NCBI GenBank assembly: GCA_017514125.1
Contig: JAFWKW010000015.1
Span: 1-44,094 of the forward strand
From: Candidatus Saccharimonadota bacterium
GTDB lineage: Bacteria > Patescibacteriota > Saccharimonadia > Saccharimonadales > Saccharimonadaceae
Reading direction: 5' to 3'
Length of the DNA: 44,094 nt
Within the stretch, counting starts at the first letter, position 1, and each line of letters begins with the position of its first letter. Shown here in pieces: positions 5,344-31,363 of the stretch. The translations under genes and the position numbers were made by a program. The notes under the pieces were generated by a model. It saw only the letters and a program-made list of their open reading frames with translations, was not told the origin of the DNA and ran no database searches.

Positions 5344-6036
5344 ATGGAATCTACAGACAAAAAACCTATTAGCAAACGTCTTACAGATAAAAGAAAACGC
5401 ACTTATGCCCGGATGCTTAAGAGCATTATTTGTACTGTGCTAGTCATAGTTGTAGTTTTGATTGTTTTACAGCTTCTCGGCGTCAACGTTAGTTCTATGT
5501 TGGCTGGCGTCGGCATCGTTTCAATCATTGTGGGTTTTGCTCTCCAGGATGCTCTGAAGGATATGATTAGGGGCCTTGAAATTATCTCGAGTAATTATTA
5601 CGATATTGGCGATTTGATTAAATTTGGCGATAACTTAGGCATTGTCCAAACTATTACTCTTCGGACTACTAGAATTCAAGACATCAATAGTATGAATATC
5701 GTTTCCATTGCTAATCGCAATATTGATAAGGTAGAGGTGGATACCGGTTATATTTATATTCCAGTACCGCTCCCATACGAGCTAAAAATCGAAAAAGCCG
5801 ACAATATTATGGCAGAAATTGCCAAAAAACTAGCAAAAACCGACCTTATTACCTCGTCTGGCTACCAAGGTCTTACCAAGATCGATAGTTCTTCTCTCAA
5901 CTACCAAGTAGTCGTTACTTGTAATCCTACCGACCGCCTCCAAGCTCGCCGCAACTCTCTCCATACCATCGTCGAAACCTTAGAAGAAAACAAAATCTCC
6001 ATCCCCTACGACCAGCTCGACGTTCATACCAAATAA
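5344..6036 (+). CDS. MscS-family mechanosensitive channel protein
   Basis: 230 residues. One or two N-terminal membrane helices (about 25-45 and 50-70, GVGIVSIIVGFALQDALKDM) match the pore-lining TM3 of MscS, with the Gly/Ala pattern and the family's FALQDxxKD motif. The beta domain follows (YDIGDLIKFGDNLGIVQTITLRTTRI), then an alpha/beta C-terminal part. It is shorter than E. coli MscS (286), lacking the first helices. It should release solutes on hypo-osmotic shock. The FISUMP cassette array begins 24 nt after its stop. Confidence 0.88.
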   Translation: MESTDKKPISKRLTDKRKRTYARMLKSIICTVLVIVVVLIVLQLLGVNVSSMLAGVGIVSIIVGFALQDALKDMIRGLEIISSNYYDIGDLIKFGDNLGIVQTITLRTTRIQDINSMNIVSIANRNIDKVEVDTGYIYIPVPLPYELKIEKADNIMAEIAKKLAKTDLITSSGYQGLTKIDSSSLNYQVVVTCNPTDRLQARRNSLHTIVETLEENKISIPYDQLDVHTK

Positions 6037-6060
6037 AACCTACCGGAATCCGAGCACCAT

Positions 6061-6127
6061 CATCCCTTGATACATTAGTGGATATAAAAAGACTAGACTT
6101 TAGGAGGCCTGGATACAGCGGATGTAG
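6061..6127 (-). repeat. Cassette-end inverted repeat, copy R1
   Basis: A 67-bp block identical to R3 (8133-8199) in the same orientation, and matching R2 (7131-7197) in inverted orientation with three differences. In coding orientation it holds the last codons of the FISUMP-like domain (IRCIQAS, stop TAA), then TATATCCACTAATGTATCAA and GGGATG. Confidence 0.92.
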
Positions 6128-6375
6128 TAGCCAACGTTGCGGTAGCCGTTGTAGGTGAATAGGTTATTGCTATTATAGCCTAGGTAGTACCGACTCCCGC
6201 CATCATACGCTGTAGAGCCCCACTGATACCCGTGTGTAGAGTCATTGAGTAATGTATTATTGAGATAACGCCCGCCCAAGACTGGAGAAAAACTAGAAAC
6301 GTAGACACTGCTGGATCCTCCACTTAGACTATCTATCTGTGTTTTGCTTGGCAATGTCCAGCCTTTGGGGCAGAT
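6100..6375 (-). pseudogene. FISUMP-like cassette C1 (C-terminal part only)
   Basis: Encodes ICPKGWTLPSKTQ ... SFSPVLGGRYLNN ... QWGSTAYDGGSRYYLGYN ... GYYIRCIQAS and stops in repeat R1. This is the C-terminal half of the domain (Fibrobacter succinogenes major paralogous domain, with a C-type-lectin-like look). It has no start codon, promoter or signal sequence. The 5' edge is abrupt at ATCTGCCCC (6375) and abuts cassette C2, which points the other way. C5 is cut at exactly the same place. Best explained as a silent or donor fragment rather than a gene. Confidence 0.75.
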
Positions 6376-6884
6376 GGAGACCGCGGCACCAGCGGGGGCG
6401 AGTGCTATGGGACATCTAGTGCTGGAACTGGTAGCGGCCTTGGATACACCAATGCTTGTATTCATAGTGGGTCTACTGAACATAGTGGAGGTAACACTGT
6501 TTGGTATAATTATAGCGCAGCCACTGCTGGAGAGATAACTGGTACAGATAATACCATTACAGCTACAGAAAGTGTTTGTCCGAAAGGTTGGACTTTACCT
6601 ATAAAGAAACAAACTGATAACAATATAGATGTTGCTAGTTTCTCTCCGGTTCTGGGTGGAAATTACGGCAATGGTACACTAAGTAGTGAAGCTGTATACG
6701 GGCGTTGGTGGGGTTCTACCGGGTACAGCAGTGCGGTTCGGTATCTCTTACTTTATAATGGCAGTAGCCTATCTACCGACGGCAGTTATCGTCGCACCGG
6801 CGCTTACATCCGCTGTGTTAGTGAGGAAAAGGATGTATCAGACTTAACCTATATGCAGGATATGACAGCAAAGGTAGCAGATAC
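6376..6884 (+). pseudogene. FISUMP-like cassette C2 (middle and C-terminal part)
   Basis: An open frame with no start codon. It reads DRGTSGGECYGTSSAGTG, TVWYNY, VCPKGWTLPIKKQTDNN, SFSPVLGGNYGNG, WWGSTGYSSAVRYLLLYNG, YIRCVSEEKDVSDLTYMQ. The SGGECYG-to-YIRC part is one FISUMP-like domain. LTYMQDMTAKVADTP looks like the opening of a second domain, joined directly to cassette C3 at a CCCCAAAGGC boundary, so a middle part has probably been deleted. It is head-to-head with C1. Confidence 0.75.
6811..6863 (+). repeat. 53-bp perfect inverted repeat, left arm
   Basis: These 53 bp (RCVSEEKDVSDLTYMQD coding part) recur exactly, inverted, at 7607-7659. The two arms enclose 743 bp carrying cassette C3 and the N-terminal remnant. 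Confidence 0.93.
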
Positions 6885-7158
6885 CCCCAAAGGCTGGACA
6901 TTGCCAAGCGTAGATCAAGTTCGTACTATTGGGCCAGACGCCCATAGTGTTACTTATGTCAGTAGTTTTTCACCAGTTCGGGGCGGGAATTACAACAATG
7001 GCACACTGGGTAATGAGTTTACGCACGGGGTCTGGTGGGGCTCTACGGTATATAATGTTGCGCAACGGTGTGGTCTGTATTACGATAGTAGTAGCTTATA
7101 TACCAGCCACAGCCGCCGCAGCAATGGGAGCTATGTGCGCTGTATCCAGGCCTCCTAA
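6885..7158 (+). pseudogene. FISUMP-like cassette C3 (C-terminal part)
   Basis: In frame with C2. It encodes PKGWTLPSVDQVRTIGPDA, SSFSPVRGGNYNNG, WWGSTVYNVAQRCGLYYD, YVRCIQAS and stops at 7156-7158 inside repeat R2. Its start shares 25 bp (CCCCAAAGGCTGGACATTGC...) with C1 and C5, whereas C2 and C4 encode the same peptide with different codons. So C3 is a cassette pasted into the C2 reading frame. Confidence 0.75.
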
Positions 7159-7197
7159 AGTCTAGTCTTTTTATATCCACTAATGTATCAAGGGATG
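7131..7197 (+). repeat. Cassette-end inverted repeat, copy R2
   Basis: The reverse complement of R1 and R3, with three differences near the cassette side. Similarity ends sharply after GGGATG at 7197. Confidence 0.92.
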
Positions 7198-7436
7198 GAT
7201 ACAATAAGCCTAGGCGGTTTGAAATTAAGCATAAGCTAGGGGTGGGGGGTTGATTTTCTGGTGTGGGTATGATAGTGTAGGTATCGGTTGGGAGTATTTG
7301 GATTTTTTCTAGTATAAACTCGGGCGTGGGCCTACGTAGCCTCAAAAACTGCGAGGGGGTTTATACAACTATCCTATGTTACGGTTGGGTCGTAAAACCC
7401 TCTATATTAGAAAACTAAAATAGAAAGGAAATAGTT
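7198..7436. other. Noncoding stretch upstream of the N-terminal remnant
   Basis: G- and T-rich on the plus strand; no gene is supported. GTATAAAC (about 7311-7318) is the reverse complement of GTTTATAC (about 7349-7356), enclosing the palindrome CTACGTAG. A weak TATATT at 7403-7408 could serve the short ORF at 7437. This may be the old leader of a full-length surface-protein gene. Confidence 0.4.
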
Positions 7437-7578
7437 ATGGGTAGAGAACACAAACTCCTGCTTGTGATCAGGCTCTGGACAAAAAAGATTACCGTCATTG
7501 TGAAATGGCGGTAGTCTAACACTTACTCTTAATCGGCAGCATACTAGGCTCTGCTACCATTGATATAATTATACCTCA
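7437..7578 (+). pseudogene. N-terminal membrane-anchor remnant of a surface protein
   Basis: An AAAGGAA ribosome binding site precedes ATG 7437, which reads MGREHKLLLVIRLWTKKITV and stops at 7512-7514 (25 codons). One frame over, the DNA goes on to encode HLLLIGSILGSATIDIIIPQA, a hydrophobic stretch. Together they look like the signal-anchor of a FISUMP-type protein broken by a frameshift and stop. It runs straight into the reversed end of cassette C4. It is the only piece in the array with translation-start signals. Confidence 0.55.
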
Positions 7579-8131
7579 AGCGGAATTATCCGTCAAGAGA
7601 AGTGTTATATCCTGCATATAGGTTAAGTCTGATACATCCTTTTCCTCACTAACACAGCGGATGTAGCGCCCAGTGAAGCGGCTGCCGTAGTCGGTATATA
7701 GGCTACTACCATTGTAAAGCAGGAAGTACCGTAACGCACCATTAGACGCCGTACTGCCCCACCAGTACCCGCGCGTAGACTCAACGACCAGCGTACCATT
7801 ACTGTAATACCCGCCCAGGACTGGGGAAAAGCTATTGACATAAGTAGTACTACCAGCATCTGGCCCTATACTGCGAGTCTGTTCCATAGTGGGTAAGCTC
7901 CAGTTCTTAGGGCATATGCTTTCTGTAGCTATAATAGTGTTATTTGTGCCAGTTATAGTATTAGCAGAAGCTGTAACATAGTTGTACCAAACCGTATTAC
8001 CTTCAGTATAATCATTGGAGCCACTATGGATACAAGCATTAGTATATCCACCTCCACTACCAGTTCCGGTAGTAGAATCATAAGTCCCATAGCACTCACC
8101 TCCGCTGGCGCCGCGTTTCTCTAAGTCGTAT
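7576..8131 (-). pseudogene. FISUMP-like cassette C4 (middle and C-terminal part)
   Basis: Read on the minus strand: GYDLEKRGASGGECYGTYDS, TVWYNYVTASANT, SICPKNWSLPTMEQT, NSFSPVLGGYYSNG, YWWGSTASNGALRYFLLYNG, YIRCVSEEKDVSDLTYMQD, then TLLLTDNSA and TGA at 7576-7578. It has the same domain extent as C2 but different variable residues. There is no start codon at the domain edge; the frame stays open back through repeat R3. The last codons lie past the 53-bp shared arm and belong to the N-terminal remnant's other strand. Confidence 0.75.
7607..7659 (-). repeat. 53-bp perfect inverted repeat, right arm
   Basis: The reverse complement of 6811-6863 without a mismatch. Confidence 0.93.
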
Positions 8132-8132
8132 C

Positions 8133-8199
8133 CATCCCTTGATACATTAGTGGATATAAAAAGACTAGACTTTAGGAGGCCTGGATACAGCGGATGTAG
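8133..8199 (-). repeat. Cassette-end inverted repeat, copy R3
   Basis: Identical over 67 bp to R1 (6061-6127). It lies between C4 (upstream edge) and C5 (its 3' end). Confidence 0.92.
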
Positions 8200-8444
8200 A
8201 GGCCAGTACGGCGGCCACTGTTGCCTCTATATAGGATACTATCATTGTAAATTAGGATATGTCGTGCCGCACCATTATACGCCGTAGAACCCCACCAGAA
8301 CCCGCGCGTAGATTCACTCTCCAGCGTACCAGCGATGTAACTCCCGCCCAGGATCGGGAAAAAACTGGTGACATAAGCGTTAGTATTATTACCTATACTT
8401 TCACTCTGTGATTTGCTAGGCAATGTCCAGCCTTTGGGGCAGAT
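8172..8444 (-). pseudogene. FISUMP-like cassette C5 (C-terminal part)
   Basis: Read on the minus strand: ICPKGWTLPSKSQSESIG, YVTSFFPILGGSYIAG, FWWGSTAYNGAARHILIYN, LYIRCIQAS, stop inside R3. Its 5' edge is ATCTGCCCC at 8444, the same edge as C1, and it abuts the ileS promoter region. It has no promoter or credible start. Confidence 0.75.
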
Positions 8445-8458
8445 ATATTAACCCATTA

Positions 8459-8487
8459 TTGTCAACACCCCTAAATTTTGATACAAT
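8459..8487 (+). promoter_or_regulatory. Promoter of ileS
   Basis: TTGTCA (8459-8464), 17 bp, TACAAT (8482-8487), then 7 nt to the ileS ATG, giving an almost leaderless mRNA. Confidence 0.8.
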
Positions 8488-8494
8488 AATAGAT

Positions 8495-11400
8495 ATGAAA
8501 TATAGAGCGGGAGAGAGGCGAAAAGCCTTAGAATACGAAAAGGCTCTCATAGACTGGTGGAAGAAAAACAAAACTTTCGAAAAATCCATCGAAGAGAGGC
8601 CAGAAGACAAGAGTTATGTTTTTTATGACGGCCCACCGTTTATTACTGGCATGCCTCATCACGGCACACTGCTCAGTTCTATTGTCAAAGACGCTGTCCC
8701 CCGCTTTTGGACTATGCGAGGCTATAGGGTAGAAAGACGCTGGGGCTGGGATTGTCACGGTCTCCCTGCGGAAAACTTTGTGGAAAAACAGCTTGGCATT
8801 ACCGACAGAAGGGATATCGGCACCAAGTGGAGCTTAGAGGATTACATCATAAAAGCCAGAGAATCTATGGTGGCGAATTCCGAAGAATGGAGAAGTACGA
8901 TAGATCGCTGTGGCCGTTGGGTAGATTTTGATCATCCTTATCGCACCATGAACAAAGATTTTATGGAGTCTGTCTGGTGGGCCTTCAAAAAATTATACGA
9001 AGCCGGCAAAATCTATGAAGGCAGAAAAGTCCTCATGTACGACACTAAATTCGCCACCCCTGTATCTAAGGCCGAGGTGACTATGGACAACGACGCCTAC
9101 CAGACTGTCACCGACCCTTCCGCCTACGTGAAATTTAAGGGTAAAGATTTTACTTTTCTCGCCTGGACTACCACTCCTTGGACCTTGATGGCCAATAGAG
9201 CTCTCGCAGTTAATCCAGATATGGACTATATTGCTGTTGAAGTTGATGGCGAAAAATACATTATTGCCGAATCTCGCGCAGCACAGGTTTTTGGATCTGA
9301 CATAGTTGAACATGGACGGGTGACGGCCCTGGAGGGGGCCCCCCGCGAGCTTCAGCGAGTGGGGGAGGAGAAGGGCCGGCAGGACCCGTCCAAAATCAAA
9401 GGTAAAGATTTAGAAGGCTTAGAATACGAATCTCTAGACGGTACCAAGTGTAAAGTCTTCGCCGCCAATTTTGTAGGAGAAGAAGAAGGTACCGGCATCG
9501 TTCATATCGCTCCCGCCTACGGTGAAGACGACTATGAACTCTATAAGAAACACGAAAAAGAAATCGGCTTCATCGATACTTTAGACGAAAACGGCTATTA
9601 TATAGAAGAATATGCTGACAAACTCCACGAACTAGGCGTAAGAGATACCGACGAACACGGCATCCAAATTTGGGCTGCTAATAAATTCATCGCCAAATGC
9701 CTAGAAGAAAAGGGAATTGTCTATAAAATCGAATATATCCAGCACGAATATCCATTTAATCCGCGTTCCAAAGAGCGCATTATGTACCGCGCCTTCCCAT
9801 CTTGGTTCTTCGATGTAGAAAACCAAAAAGAACTGATGCTAGCCGAGAACGAAAACATCAACTGGTTCCCAGATTATCTTAAGAGAGGCCGCTTTGCCAA
9901 AAATATCGAAGCCGCCCCAGACTGGAACCTTTCGAGAGATCGTTTCTGGGCCACCGCTATGCCAGTTTGGAAGGGTGAAAAAACCGGTGCCATCAAAGTT
10001 TTTGGCTCGTATGAAGAACTGAAAGAGTTCTCTGGTGTAGAATTAGAGGACTACCATCGACCGTGGGTAGACGAAGTAGAGTTTGATGCTTATGTAGATG
10101 AACATGGACGGGTGACGCGCATGGAGGGGGCCCCCCGCGAGCTTCAGCGAGTGGGGGAGGAGAATGCGCGGCAGGACCCGTCCAGTGATCATTTTACTCG
10201 TATTGAAAAGGTCCTAGACTGCTGGTTCGAATCCGGTTCTATGCCATTTGCTCAGCTTCATTACCCATTCGAAAACAAAGAAAAGTTTGAAAAGAACTAC
10301 CCAGCCGATTTTATCGTAGAATATGTCGGCCAAGTTCGCGCTTGGTTCTACTATGTCCACACTGTAAATACCGCTCTAGCCGAGATTGGCGCCTTTGGCG
10401 AAAAGGCTAAAAAAGGTCATAAAAACGCCTACAAAAACGTTATTACCACTGGTACCTTGGCAGGGAACGACGGCCGCAAGATGAGCAAATCTCTCGGCAA
10501 TTACACCGACCCGAACGTCCTCATGGACCAATACTCTGCCGATGCCTACAGATTTCTCTTGCTATCTAGTCCAGTGATGTCTGGCGAAGATTTCGCTATG
10601 CTTGACAAAGACGTCTCCGACGTCAGTCGCAAACTCGCTATGCTCTGGAATGTCTACGACTTCTTCACCACCTACGCCGAGATTGACAATATAGATAGTG
10701 ACAATCTAAAAGACGTCAAGTCAACAAACCCCCTTGACATATGGATCGTTTCTCGTGTATATGAATTAAGAAGTCATATCACCGAGAATATGGAGAATTA
10801 CAACCTCCCAGCCGCTCTAGAGACTGTTTTGCCATTTATAGACGATTTATCCAACTGGTTCGTTCGCCGCTCCCGTCGCCGTTTTTCCAAAAACGACGAT
10901 AAAAAAGACAAAATGGCTGCTTACAGTACGCTTTACTATATATTAATATATATAGCGCATTTAATGGCTCCATTCACCCCATTCTTAGCTGAAGAGCTCT
11001 ATCAGAAACTCACTGGCGAGAATAAATCCATCCATCTAGAAACGTGGCCAGAAGCCGGCGAGATTAATCAAGAGGTTTTGGATAATATGTCTCGCACCCG
11101 CCAAATCATCACCGATGCCCTGAGTCTAAGGATGCAAAAGTCCGACACCGAAGACCAGATCAAGGTCCGTCAGCCACTCTCGAGCCTCGTTTACCCAGGC
11201 GAAAAGTTAGATGATTTCTACGAGCAAATTATAAAAGACGAAGTCAACGTCAAAAAAATCTCAAACGGCAAAGAATTGAAATTAGATAAAACTCTTACCA
11301 AAGAATTAAGGGAAGAAGGCTACGCCCGCGATCTCATCCGTGCCATCCAGTCCGCCCGCAAGCACGCCGGCTTACAGATGGATGATCACATCAAACTCTC

Positions 11401-28598: not shown

Positions 28599-29483
28599 AT
28601 GCAAATCCTATTCCTCATCCTCATGTTTGTCCTCGGAGCTATTTTCGGCTCATTCCTTTGCTGCCAAGTGAGGCGGTTGCGCTTGAGAGAGAAACACCGA
28701 CGGGTGACGGCCCTGGAGGGGGCCCCCCGCGAGCTTCAGCGAGTGGGGGAGGAGAAGGGCCGGCAGGACCCGTCGGGCAAATCACCCAAGCGGTCCATCT
28801 GTCTTCATTGCCACAAACAATTGAAATGGTACGATAATATCCCCATCATTTCCTGGCTAGCCTTAAGAGGGAAGTGCAGAAGTTGCCACAAAAAAATCGG
28901 CCATGCCGAAATAATTTCCGAGCTCAGTCTAGCCTTTACTTTCCTCGCCCTCGGTACCTACTTTCTTTGTAGCAATAGCTCTATCTATTCAGACTTGCTA
29001 TCCGACTTCCCCATCATCAGTCCCATAAACTGGGCTATTTTCATTATTCTCTTAATGTTTACCCTAAGCCTAGCCTTTTTAGCTATTTATGACGGCCTCT
29101 ATGGTGAACTTCCTACCATTAGCCTCATCATCTCCGCCGTTTTTGCTATCACTCTAGTTATCTTGAGTGCTTGGCCAGATTTCACTCCTATGCCGATTTT
29201 CTCCGCCTTGCTTTTCGGCGGTATCTATCTGATTCTATATCTAGTTTCCAAAGGTAAATGGGTCGGCGATGGTGATTGGATTCTCGCCGCTATCATCGGC
29301 CTCGCTCTTGGTCATCCTTGGTTAGCAGCCGTCGCTCTCGTCGTCGCTAATCTCACCGCCTGCCTTATTATGTATCCCATTGCCAAAAAGAGCAAAAACC
29401 ACCAAATCTACTTCGGCCCCTTCCTCGTCCTTTCTTTTGTCATCACATATATCTTTTCCGATTTTATCATAAGCGTGATATAA
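28599..29483 (+). CDS. pilD: Prepilin peptidase PilD with an in-frame palindromic insertion
   Basis: 294 residues. The start MQILFLILMFVLGAIFGSFL matches the first helix. The zinc-type cysteines C68, C71, C93 and C96 flank WYDNIPIISWLALRGKC, as in PilD. The aspartyl protease residues are probably in IYDGLYGELP and GDGDWIL. It cuts and methylates prepilins at the inner membrane. Residues of about 33-60 (RRVTALEGAPRELQRVGEEK onwards) are palindromic element E3, in the loop before the cysteines and in the same frame as in ileS. The start at 28599 is preferred over GTG 28581, which lies in the promoter. Confidence 0.95.
   Translation: MQILFLILMFVLGAIFGSFLCCQVRRLRLREKHRRVTALEGAPRELQRVGEEKGRQDPSGKSPKRSICLHCHKQLKWYDNIPIISWLALRGKCRSCHKKIGHAEIISELSLAFTFLALGTYFLCSNSSIYSDLLSDFPIISPINWAIFIILLMFTLSLAFLAIYDGLYGELPTISLIISAVFAITLVILSAWPDFTPMPIFSALLFGGIYLILYLVSKGKWVGDGDWILAAIIGLALGHPWLAAVALVVANLTACLIMYPIAKKSKNHQIYFGPFLVLSFVITYIFSDFIISVI
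28697..28776 (+). repeat. Palindromic element E3, inside pilD
   Basis: 80 bp, outer arms CCGACGGGT/ACCCGTCGG. The first two bases and their partners differ from E1 and E2 in a compensatory way. The second stem GGCCCT/AGGGCC is as in E1. Confidence 0.9.
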
Positions 29484-31281: not shown

Positions 31282-31363
31282 CCGACGGGTGACGCGCCTG
31301 GAGGGGGACCCCCACGGAGTCGAAGCGACGTGGGGGAGGAGAAGGCGCGGCAGGACCCGTCGG
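31282..31363. repeat. Palindromic element E4, between ackA and xerC
   Basis: 82 bp, outer arms CCGACGGGT/ACCCGTCGG, second stem GCGCCT/AGGCGC, inner stem CCCCCACG/CGTGGGGG. Arms and stems match E1-E3 in position but not in sequence. It lies just outside the xerC start, next to its -10. Confidence 0.9.

Follow-up and report, generated by a model that had tools for sequence, protein, structure and literature searches.

Silent cassettes of a predicted surface lectin in a Saccharibacteria genome, and the DGR imprint in their variation

The window analysed here is a 44,094-nt stretch of DNA, contig C35 of a MAG of 636,638 bp (36 contigs, 78.5% complete) whose nearest named relatives by IleS were Candidatus Saccharibacteria, mostly from the ruminant gut. 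Five partial copies of C-type-lectin-like coding units were located at positions 6061-8444, in the orientations given by an earlier sequence-only reading (C1 minus, C2 and C3 plus, C4 and C5 minus). That reading had treated them as copies of a single unit; instead, two types were distinguished, A (C2 and C4) and B (C1, C3 and C5). The features were as follows:

6061-6375, minus strand: C1, type-B cassette (PKGWTLP...RCIQAS stop); coding 6100-6369, conserved head 6370-6375, conserved noncoding tail ~6062-6099.
6376-6884, plus strand: C2, type-A cassette (GTSGGECYG...SEEKDVSDLTYMQDM); head 6376-6384, coding 6385-6864, tail ACAGCAAAGGTAGCAGA.
6885-7202, plus strand: C3, type-B cassette fused in frame to C2; coding 6886-7158, conserved tail 7159-7202.
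7203-7601, no strand: spacer between C3 and C4; it contains a 25-aa ORF with an RBS-like sequence (plus strand, 7437-7514 with the stop codon) and, on the minus strand, a promoter-like site at 7596-7568.
7602-8133, minus strand: C4, type-A cassette; coding 7606-8112, head GGATACGACTTAGAGAAACGC 8113-8133.
8128-8444, minus strand: C5, type-B cassette; coding 8172-8438, head 8439-8444, tail ~8128-8171.

C1 and C2 were arranged head to head, and the tail of C5 abutted the head of C4 (tail to head). C2 and C3 formed a single open frame (6385-7155). The 5' cut point and the 3' repeat previously described as common to C1, C3 and C5 were both found: the 5' edge lay between ATCTGC and CCCAAAGGCTGGACATTGCCA (the B unit start is also given as ATCTGC followed by CCCAAAGGCTGG), and the 3' edge consisted of CGCTGTATCCAGGCCTCC and TAA, followed by ~40 nt of conserved noncoding tail. 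Type-A units started at the junction of GAGAAACGC and GGCACCAGC and ended directly past SEEKDVSDLTYMQDM. The lack of a start in the cassettes was borne out, with all the features present, and the copies were promoterless as had been claimed, since promoter-like sites were found at the shuffle level (5 found, 4.5 expected). No terminator-like site was detected in 6036-8480.

When C2+C3 was used as query against its own genome, 62 matches were obtained on 24 contigs, the best at another locus with E=1e-98. These matches, together with repeats 190-260 nt long at the locus, both direct and inverted (68-78% identity), excluded a chance origin of the five copies. Complete cassettes were extracted: 25 of type A (~165 aa) and 33 of type B (~90 aa), i.e. 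58 when the copies in the putative expression gene are counted. They lay among housekeeping genes, either alone or a few together and in every orientation, and many were contig-internal, with ordinary genes of the chromosome on both sides (ileS, a mechanosensitive channel gene, rpsL, murD, secY). About 25 of the 72 contig ends fell inside cassettes; the MAG is incomplete and drops short contigs, which are rich in cassettes. Three sets of contig ends (C26_L, C28_L and C30_R; C2_L and C5_R; C18_R and C31_R) carried an identical 141-mer inside cassettes, so that the same cassette was joined to different neighbours; either one site was recently copied to another, or the population carries rearrangements. 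As a sign of population heterogeneity, the k=141 overlaps, those at the 919-aa gene described below included, were rejected, because ordinary repeats would also account for them. The location of contig ends in cassettes and several k=141 branch overlaps could suggest an assembly or binning artefact, with mixed strains collapsed into one MAG, but the many contig-internal cassettes and the occurrence of the same design in more complete genomes of other species (below) leave this explanation scarcely credible.

The copies had been assigned to the FISUMP domain. Matches to the FISUMP/Lcl_C families (TIGR02145, PF09603 and PF07603) do exist, but for these partial cassettes the best scores were 29.1, 22.6 and 21.2 bits, below the respective curated cut-offs of 41.65, 33.9 and 34.9, and the assignment is weaker than was implied. 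The AlphaFold model of A1 had a pLDDT of 36, and neither the PDB sequence search nor the Rfam search returned a match.

A full-length gene with an intact N-terminus, for which a search had been suggested, was present: the ends of contigs C29 and C20 overlapped by exactly 141 nt and, once joined, carried an open frame of 919 aa that starts with a hydrophobic stretch in its N-terminal region and continues through the A domain and a middle part to the B domain. The 514-aa N-terminal part was single-copy in the assembly; the remaining matches to its query covered only the FISUMP-like end, and a contig scan with the N-terminal part returned no relative. Because A and B both lie within this protein and its N-terminus is single-copy, the silent A and B units are parts of one 919-aa protein, predicted to be a secreted, C-lectin-like protein of surface type with A and B as successive domains. 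The C2+C3 frame matched both variable segments of the gene and skipped its middle.

Homology arms flanking the cassettes were common to the silent copies and the 919-aa gene. The ends were near-identical, also at synonymous and noncoding sites (pS 0.05 in the A head and 0.00-0.08 in the A tail), and the interiors were diverged (pS mostly 0.5-0.75 in A and 0.4-0.7 in B). The 36-nt noncoding B tail was 97-100% identical at nearly all positions in 33 copies, through the last base. None of the 58 cassettes contained a stop; under random substitution at the observed divergence ~53 stop-bearing cassettes would be expected (~24.5 of 25 A and 29 of 33 B), the A count being the cleaner test because the pattern used to find B units did not admit internal stops. 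A genome search that read through stops listed them mainly where the match overran the cassette end. The open frames could also reflect translation of the cassettes by some other route. Functionless decaying fragments of a gene family, or a dispersed repeat such as a mobile element, would agree with the dispersal, the mixed orientation and the lack of promoter excess; this is nevertheless very improbable given the zero stops, the conserved arms beside diverged interiors, the consistent edges and the same design in three further species, and no transposase was noticed in the stretches examined.

Identity runs beyond the global 5% column-permutation threshold were found in 19 A pairs, a generous count because some runs lie partly in alignment gaps, and in 2 B pairs; mosaicism among B cassettes appears weak. 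The interior of the putatively expressed A copy had no match of 30 nt or more, and that of the B copy no match of 40 nt or more, to any recovered cassette; some cassettes may be missing from the MAG. At k=20, exact tracts covered 9% of the putatively expressed A (mean 31%), which was among the least covered cassettes, and 52% of the putatively expressed B (mean 30%), which was above average. Of the silent-donor role that had been proposed for the locus, the layout stands and is far larger than noted, and donors would be expected to show such arms, uninterrupted frames and mosaic interiors; the putatively expressed A, which lacks a long identical tract, does not fit this role.

The variation within the cassettes carried a further imprint which, with the existence of two cassette types, had been overlooked. 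At hypervariable codons, positions 1 and 2 took all four bases and position 3 stayed C or T (NNC/NNT), also within the youngest B cluster. Read from the sequences, this is the adenine-mutagenesis signature of template codons AAC/AAT rewritten by a DGR (AAY to NNY). A first test, which measured the A-share of mismatches with each cassette taken in turn as template, revealed no strong bias; with mixed lineages and no template of the species' own, this result misled, and codon-position and sister-template tests took its place. For the latter, columns were chosen without use of own sequences. Asn-rich copies adjoin the reverse transcriptase (RT) in three genomes of the same genus (G083, G069 and G012). 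The most variable B columns coincided with the Asn columns of the G083 template at 17/20 (p 1e-9), of the G012 template at 16/20 (p 5e-8) and of a third sister-species template at 8/13 (p 4e-4); for the most variable A columns, the figure was 15/19 with the G083 template. The sister templates are genuine because changes in G083 concentrate on template A: three variable regions differed from the template at 19-23 of 56 A and at 0-1 of 140 other bases, and a fourth copy at 27/55 A and 6/132 other bases.

No PF00078 match to an RT was found in the own MAG (78.5% complete), no Asn-rich template copy was present among own-genome matches, and no hairpin or cruciform followed the variable region of the own 919-aa gene. 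The RT, the template or more full-length genes may be missing because of this incompleteness; the DGR of the window species seems to be lost or to lie outside the assembly, in which case recombination among stored cassettes would be the source of variation that is left. An RVT_1 match was present in 98 of the 174 same-genus genomes. Many genomes of the genus had one to five RTs, with DGR-type template copies close by in the ones examined. The stretches concerned were L117, L145, L146 and L147 (G054), L175 and L181 (G049), L119 (G083), L127 (G069) and L130 (G012).

Similar archives were found in other species. G054 carried a complete DGR, consisting of variable gene, RT and template, whose expressed region differed from the template by 14/59 A and 0/145 non-A changes. 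The family-1 regions of this genome (~43, with 0 stops) were nearly all headless and occurred both in tandem arrays and dispersed; they showed between 2 and ~54 non-A changes, but their 5' arm of 48 nt and a short arm at the 3' end were constant. Because the arm starts ~24 nt upstream of the template homology, these copies derive from the gene and not from template cDNA. An 8-bp GC-rich stem with a 4-nt loop, a hairpin of the type required for DGR homing (excerpts of PMC3240598), stood 3' of the expressed gene, and none was found 3' of the silent copies. The candidate role of these cassettes as DGR homing targets was rejected on the missing hairpin and on the start upstream of the template homology.

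A second G054 cassette family (S/T-TGSTK.QS.PLSFYYAG; L152, L153, L150 and L116) resembled another DGR template (L147:3752-3925) and was joined to family-1 cassettes either tail to tail or as tandem units, an echo of the A/B arrangement of the window genome. G049 likewise combined a DGR that looks functional (RT and template) with dozens of headless cassettes; 29 regions were examined, gene end included, with 3 to 58 non-A changes and 0 stops. The non-A changes in G054 and G049 order the cassettes by age, which opens their deposition and use to study by sequence. In G101 (97% complete), 139 matches were obtained, ~136 of them in frames <200 aa and none with a stop, and no RT was detected; the variable columns of 51 regions coincided with the Asn columns of the G054 template at 13/18 (p 3e-6). 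G118 and G166, which also gave many matches, were rejected as archives since the matches lay mostly in full-length genes of ~600 aa; match number alone does not define an archive. By these comparisons, at least four species carry frame-keeping, arm-flanked, silent-looking copies of the variable regions of one surface protein with a DGR imprint.

Part of this evidence would also suit a working multi-target DGR whose RT and template are absent only from the 78% complete MAG: RTs are frequent in the genus, the variable codons are of template type, and Treponema denticola offers a precedent with 2-7 mostly full-length targets, some isolates retaining targets after RT loss (excerpts of PMC4891356). 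Several variable regions are scattered in one genome in both cases, but here there are ~60-139 mostly headless copies with conserved arms. Targets need N-termini and a homing hairpin, the cassettes have no start and the own gene no downstream hairpin; G101 combines ~136 cassettes with no RT, and synonymous and framework divergence far exceeds A-only change. We judge such a DGR distinctly improbable.

The G054 expressed region fits recent DGR output and not a donor copy, which counts against the donor reading. It is among the points that favour a passive by-product, in which recombination or DGR mis-homing made duplicates of the variable regions of a DGR target gene and dispersed them, with no return to the gene; the DGR imprint itself and the putatively expressed copies without long identity to recovered cassettes are the others. 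This alternative is rather unlikely. No stop was present in 58, 43, 29 and 51 cassettes of the four genomes despite large synonymous or non-A divergence, the arms were conserved with their noncoding sequence, and the G054 cassettes, by their start and their lack of the gene's hairpin, are neither template cDNA insertions nor homing targets.

The explanation that we favour, and regard as fairly probable as a whole, is that DGR-made variants of a surface lectin are kept as silent cassettes which recombine via conserved arms. The storage of variants as silent cassettes is well supported; their use as donors is what we infer. The locus at 6061-8444 would be one of many silent stores for the A and B C-terminal variable regions of one surface lectin. 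A DGR would make variants within the expressed gene, these would be copied from it into silent sites, and homologous recombination via the head and tail arms would move whole cassettes or segments between the silent sites and the single expressed gene, in either direction; an altered binding face would then be presented to host cells or phages. The further proposal of a two-stage system, in which mutagenic retrohoming leads to headless silent deposits and the archive supplies variants by recombination even after DGR loss, is plausible and in our estimate falls slightly short of an even chance.

In Borrelia vlsE, Neisseria pilS and Mycoplasma MgPar, promoterless partial copies with short conserved ends and a variable interior are clustered or dispersed. 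The cassettes here likewise are promoterless partial copies with conserved ends and variable interior, but their hypervariable codons are template-type NNY; to our knowledge, vlsE, pilS and MgPar cassettes have no retroelement origin, and the origin of diversity here is unlike that of any silent-cassette system known to us. Nearest in layout are the functional pseudogenes of Anaplasma msp2/p44, with silent truncated copies around a variable middle, as here; there, one expression gene is accompanied by dozens to ~100 silent truncated copies (excerpts of PMC11946796 and PMC2789410). The present protein, in contrast, is unrelated (C-lectin/FISUMP-type), belongs to an ultrasmall episymbiont lineage and has two successive cassette types and a DGR imprint, with gene conversion presumed.

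C-lectin-type DGR targets are known, and Patescibacteria have their own DGR clade 2 (excerpts of PMC8144416). The C-lectin-type C-terminal variable region and the adenine-derived NNC/NNT codons are shared with DGRs (excerpts of PMC3240598 and PMC8144416). The parts of a DGR (RT, template and variable gene) are present in G054, G049 and G083, whereas the own MAG is without RT, template and hairpin. We know of no DGR with dozens of headless copies. In a limited literature search, the partial texts covered gave no account of silent cassettes tied to DGRs, which does not imply absence elsewhere, and none of antigenic-type variation in Saccharibacteria.

A stored repertoire of one binding surface would be a concrete candidate for the means by which Patescibacteria recognize and switch host cells and avoid phages or host defences. 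If the favoured explanation is true, DGR mutagenesis is linked with silent-cassette recombination, and DGR products gain a memory; under the two-stage proposal, several Saccharibacteria would in effect possess a heritable repertoire written by a retroelement.

The spacer (7203-7601) is probably outside the cassette system. Within 7437-7596, the 25-aa ORF with its RBS-like sequence (MGREHKLLLVIRLWTKKITVIVKWR) lies on the plus strand; the minus strand opposite it has a strong promoter-like site (TTGACG-17-TATAAT) as well as a hairpin with a U run behind it. The folding z-score was only -1, and the region could encode a small RNA or a toxin-antitoxin-like pair of type I. Tandem-like repeats (CGACAGAGAGCACCGATTCGTCGTGTCCATTTTTGCGAAGCAAAAGC) were noticed near the contig start (~256-420). 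An ~82-bp GC-rich repeat occurred at 9311-9392, 10103-10184, 28699-28774 and 31284-31361 of the window and once more on contig C8; two copies were in-frame insertions in ileS and another was inserted likewise in a prepilin-peptidase-like gene (encoding HGRVTALEGAPRELQRVGEEKGRQDPS), and one window copy was apparently intergenic. The repeat resembles Rickettsia palindromic elements, which sit inside genes.
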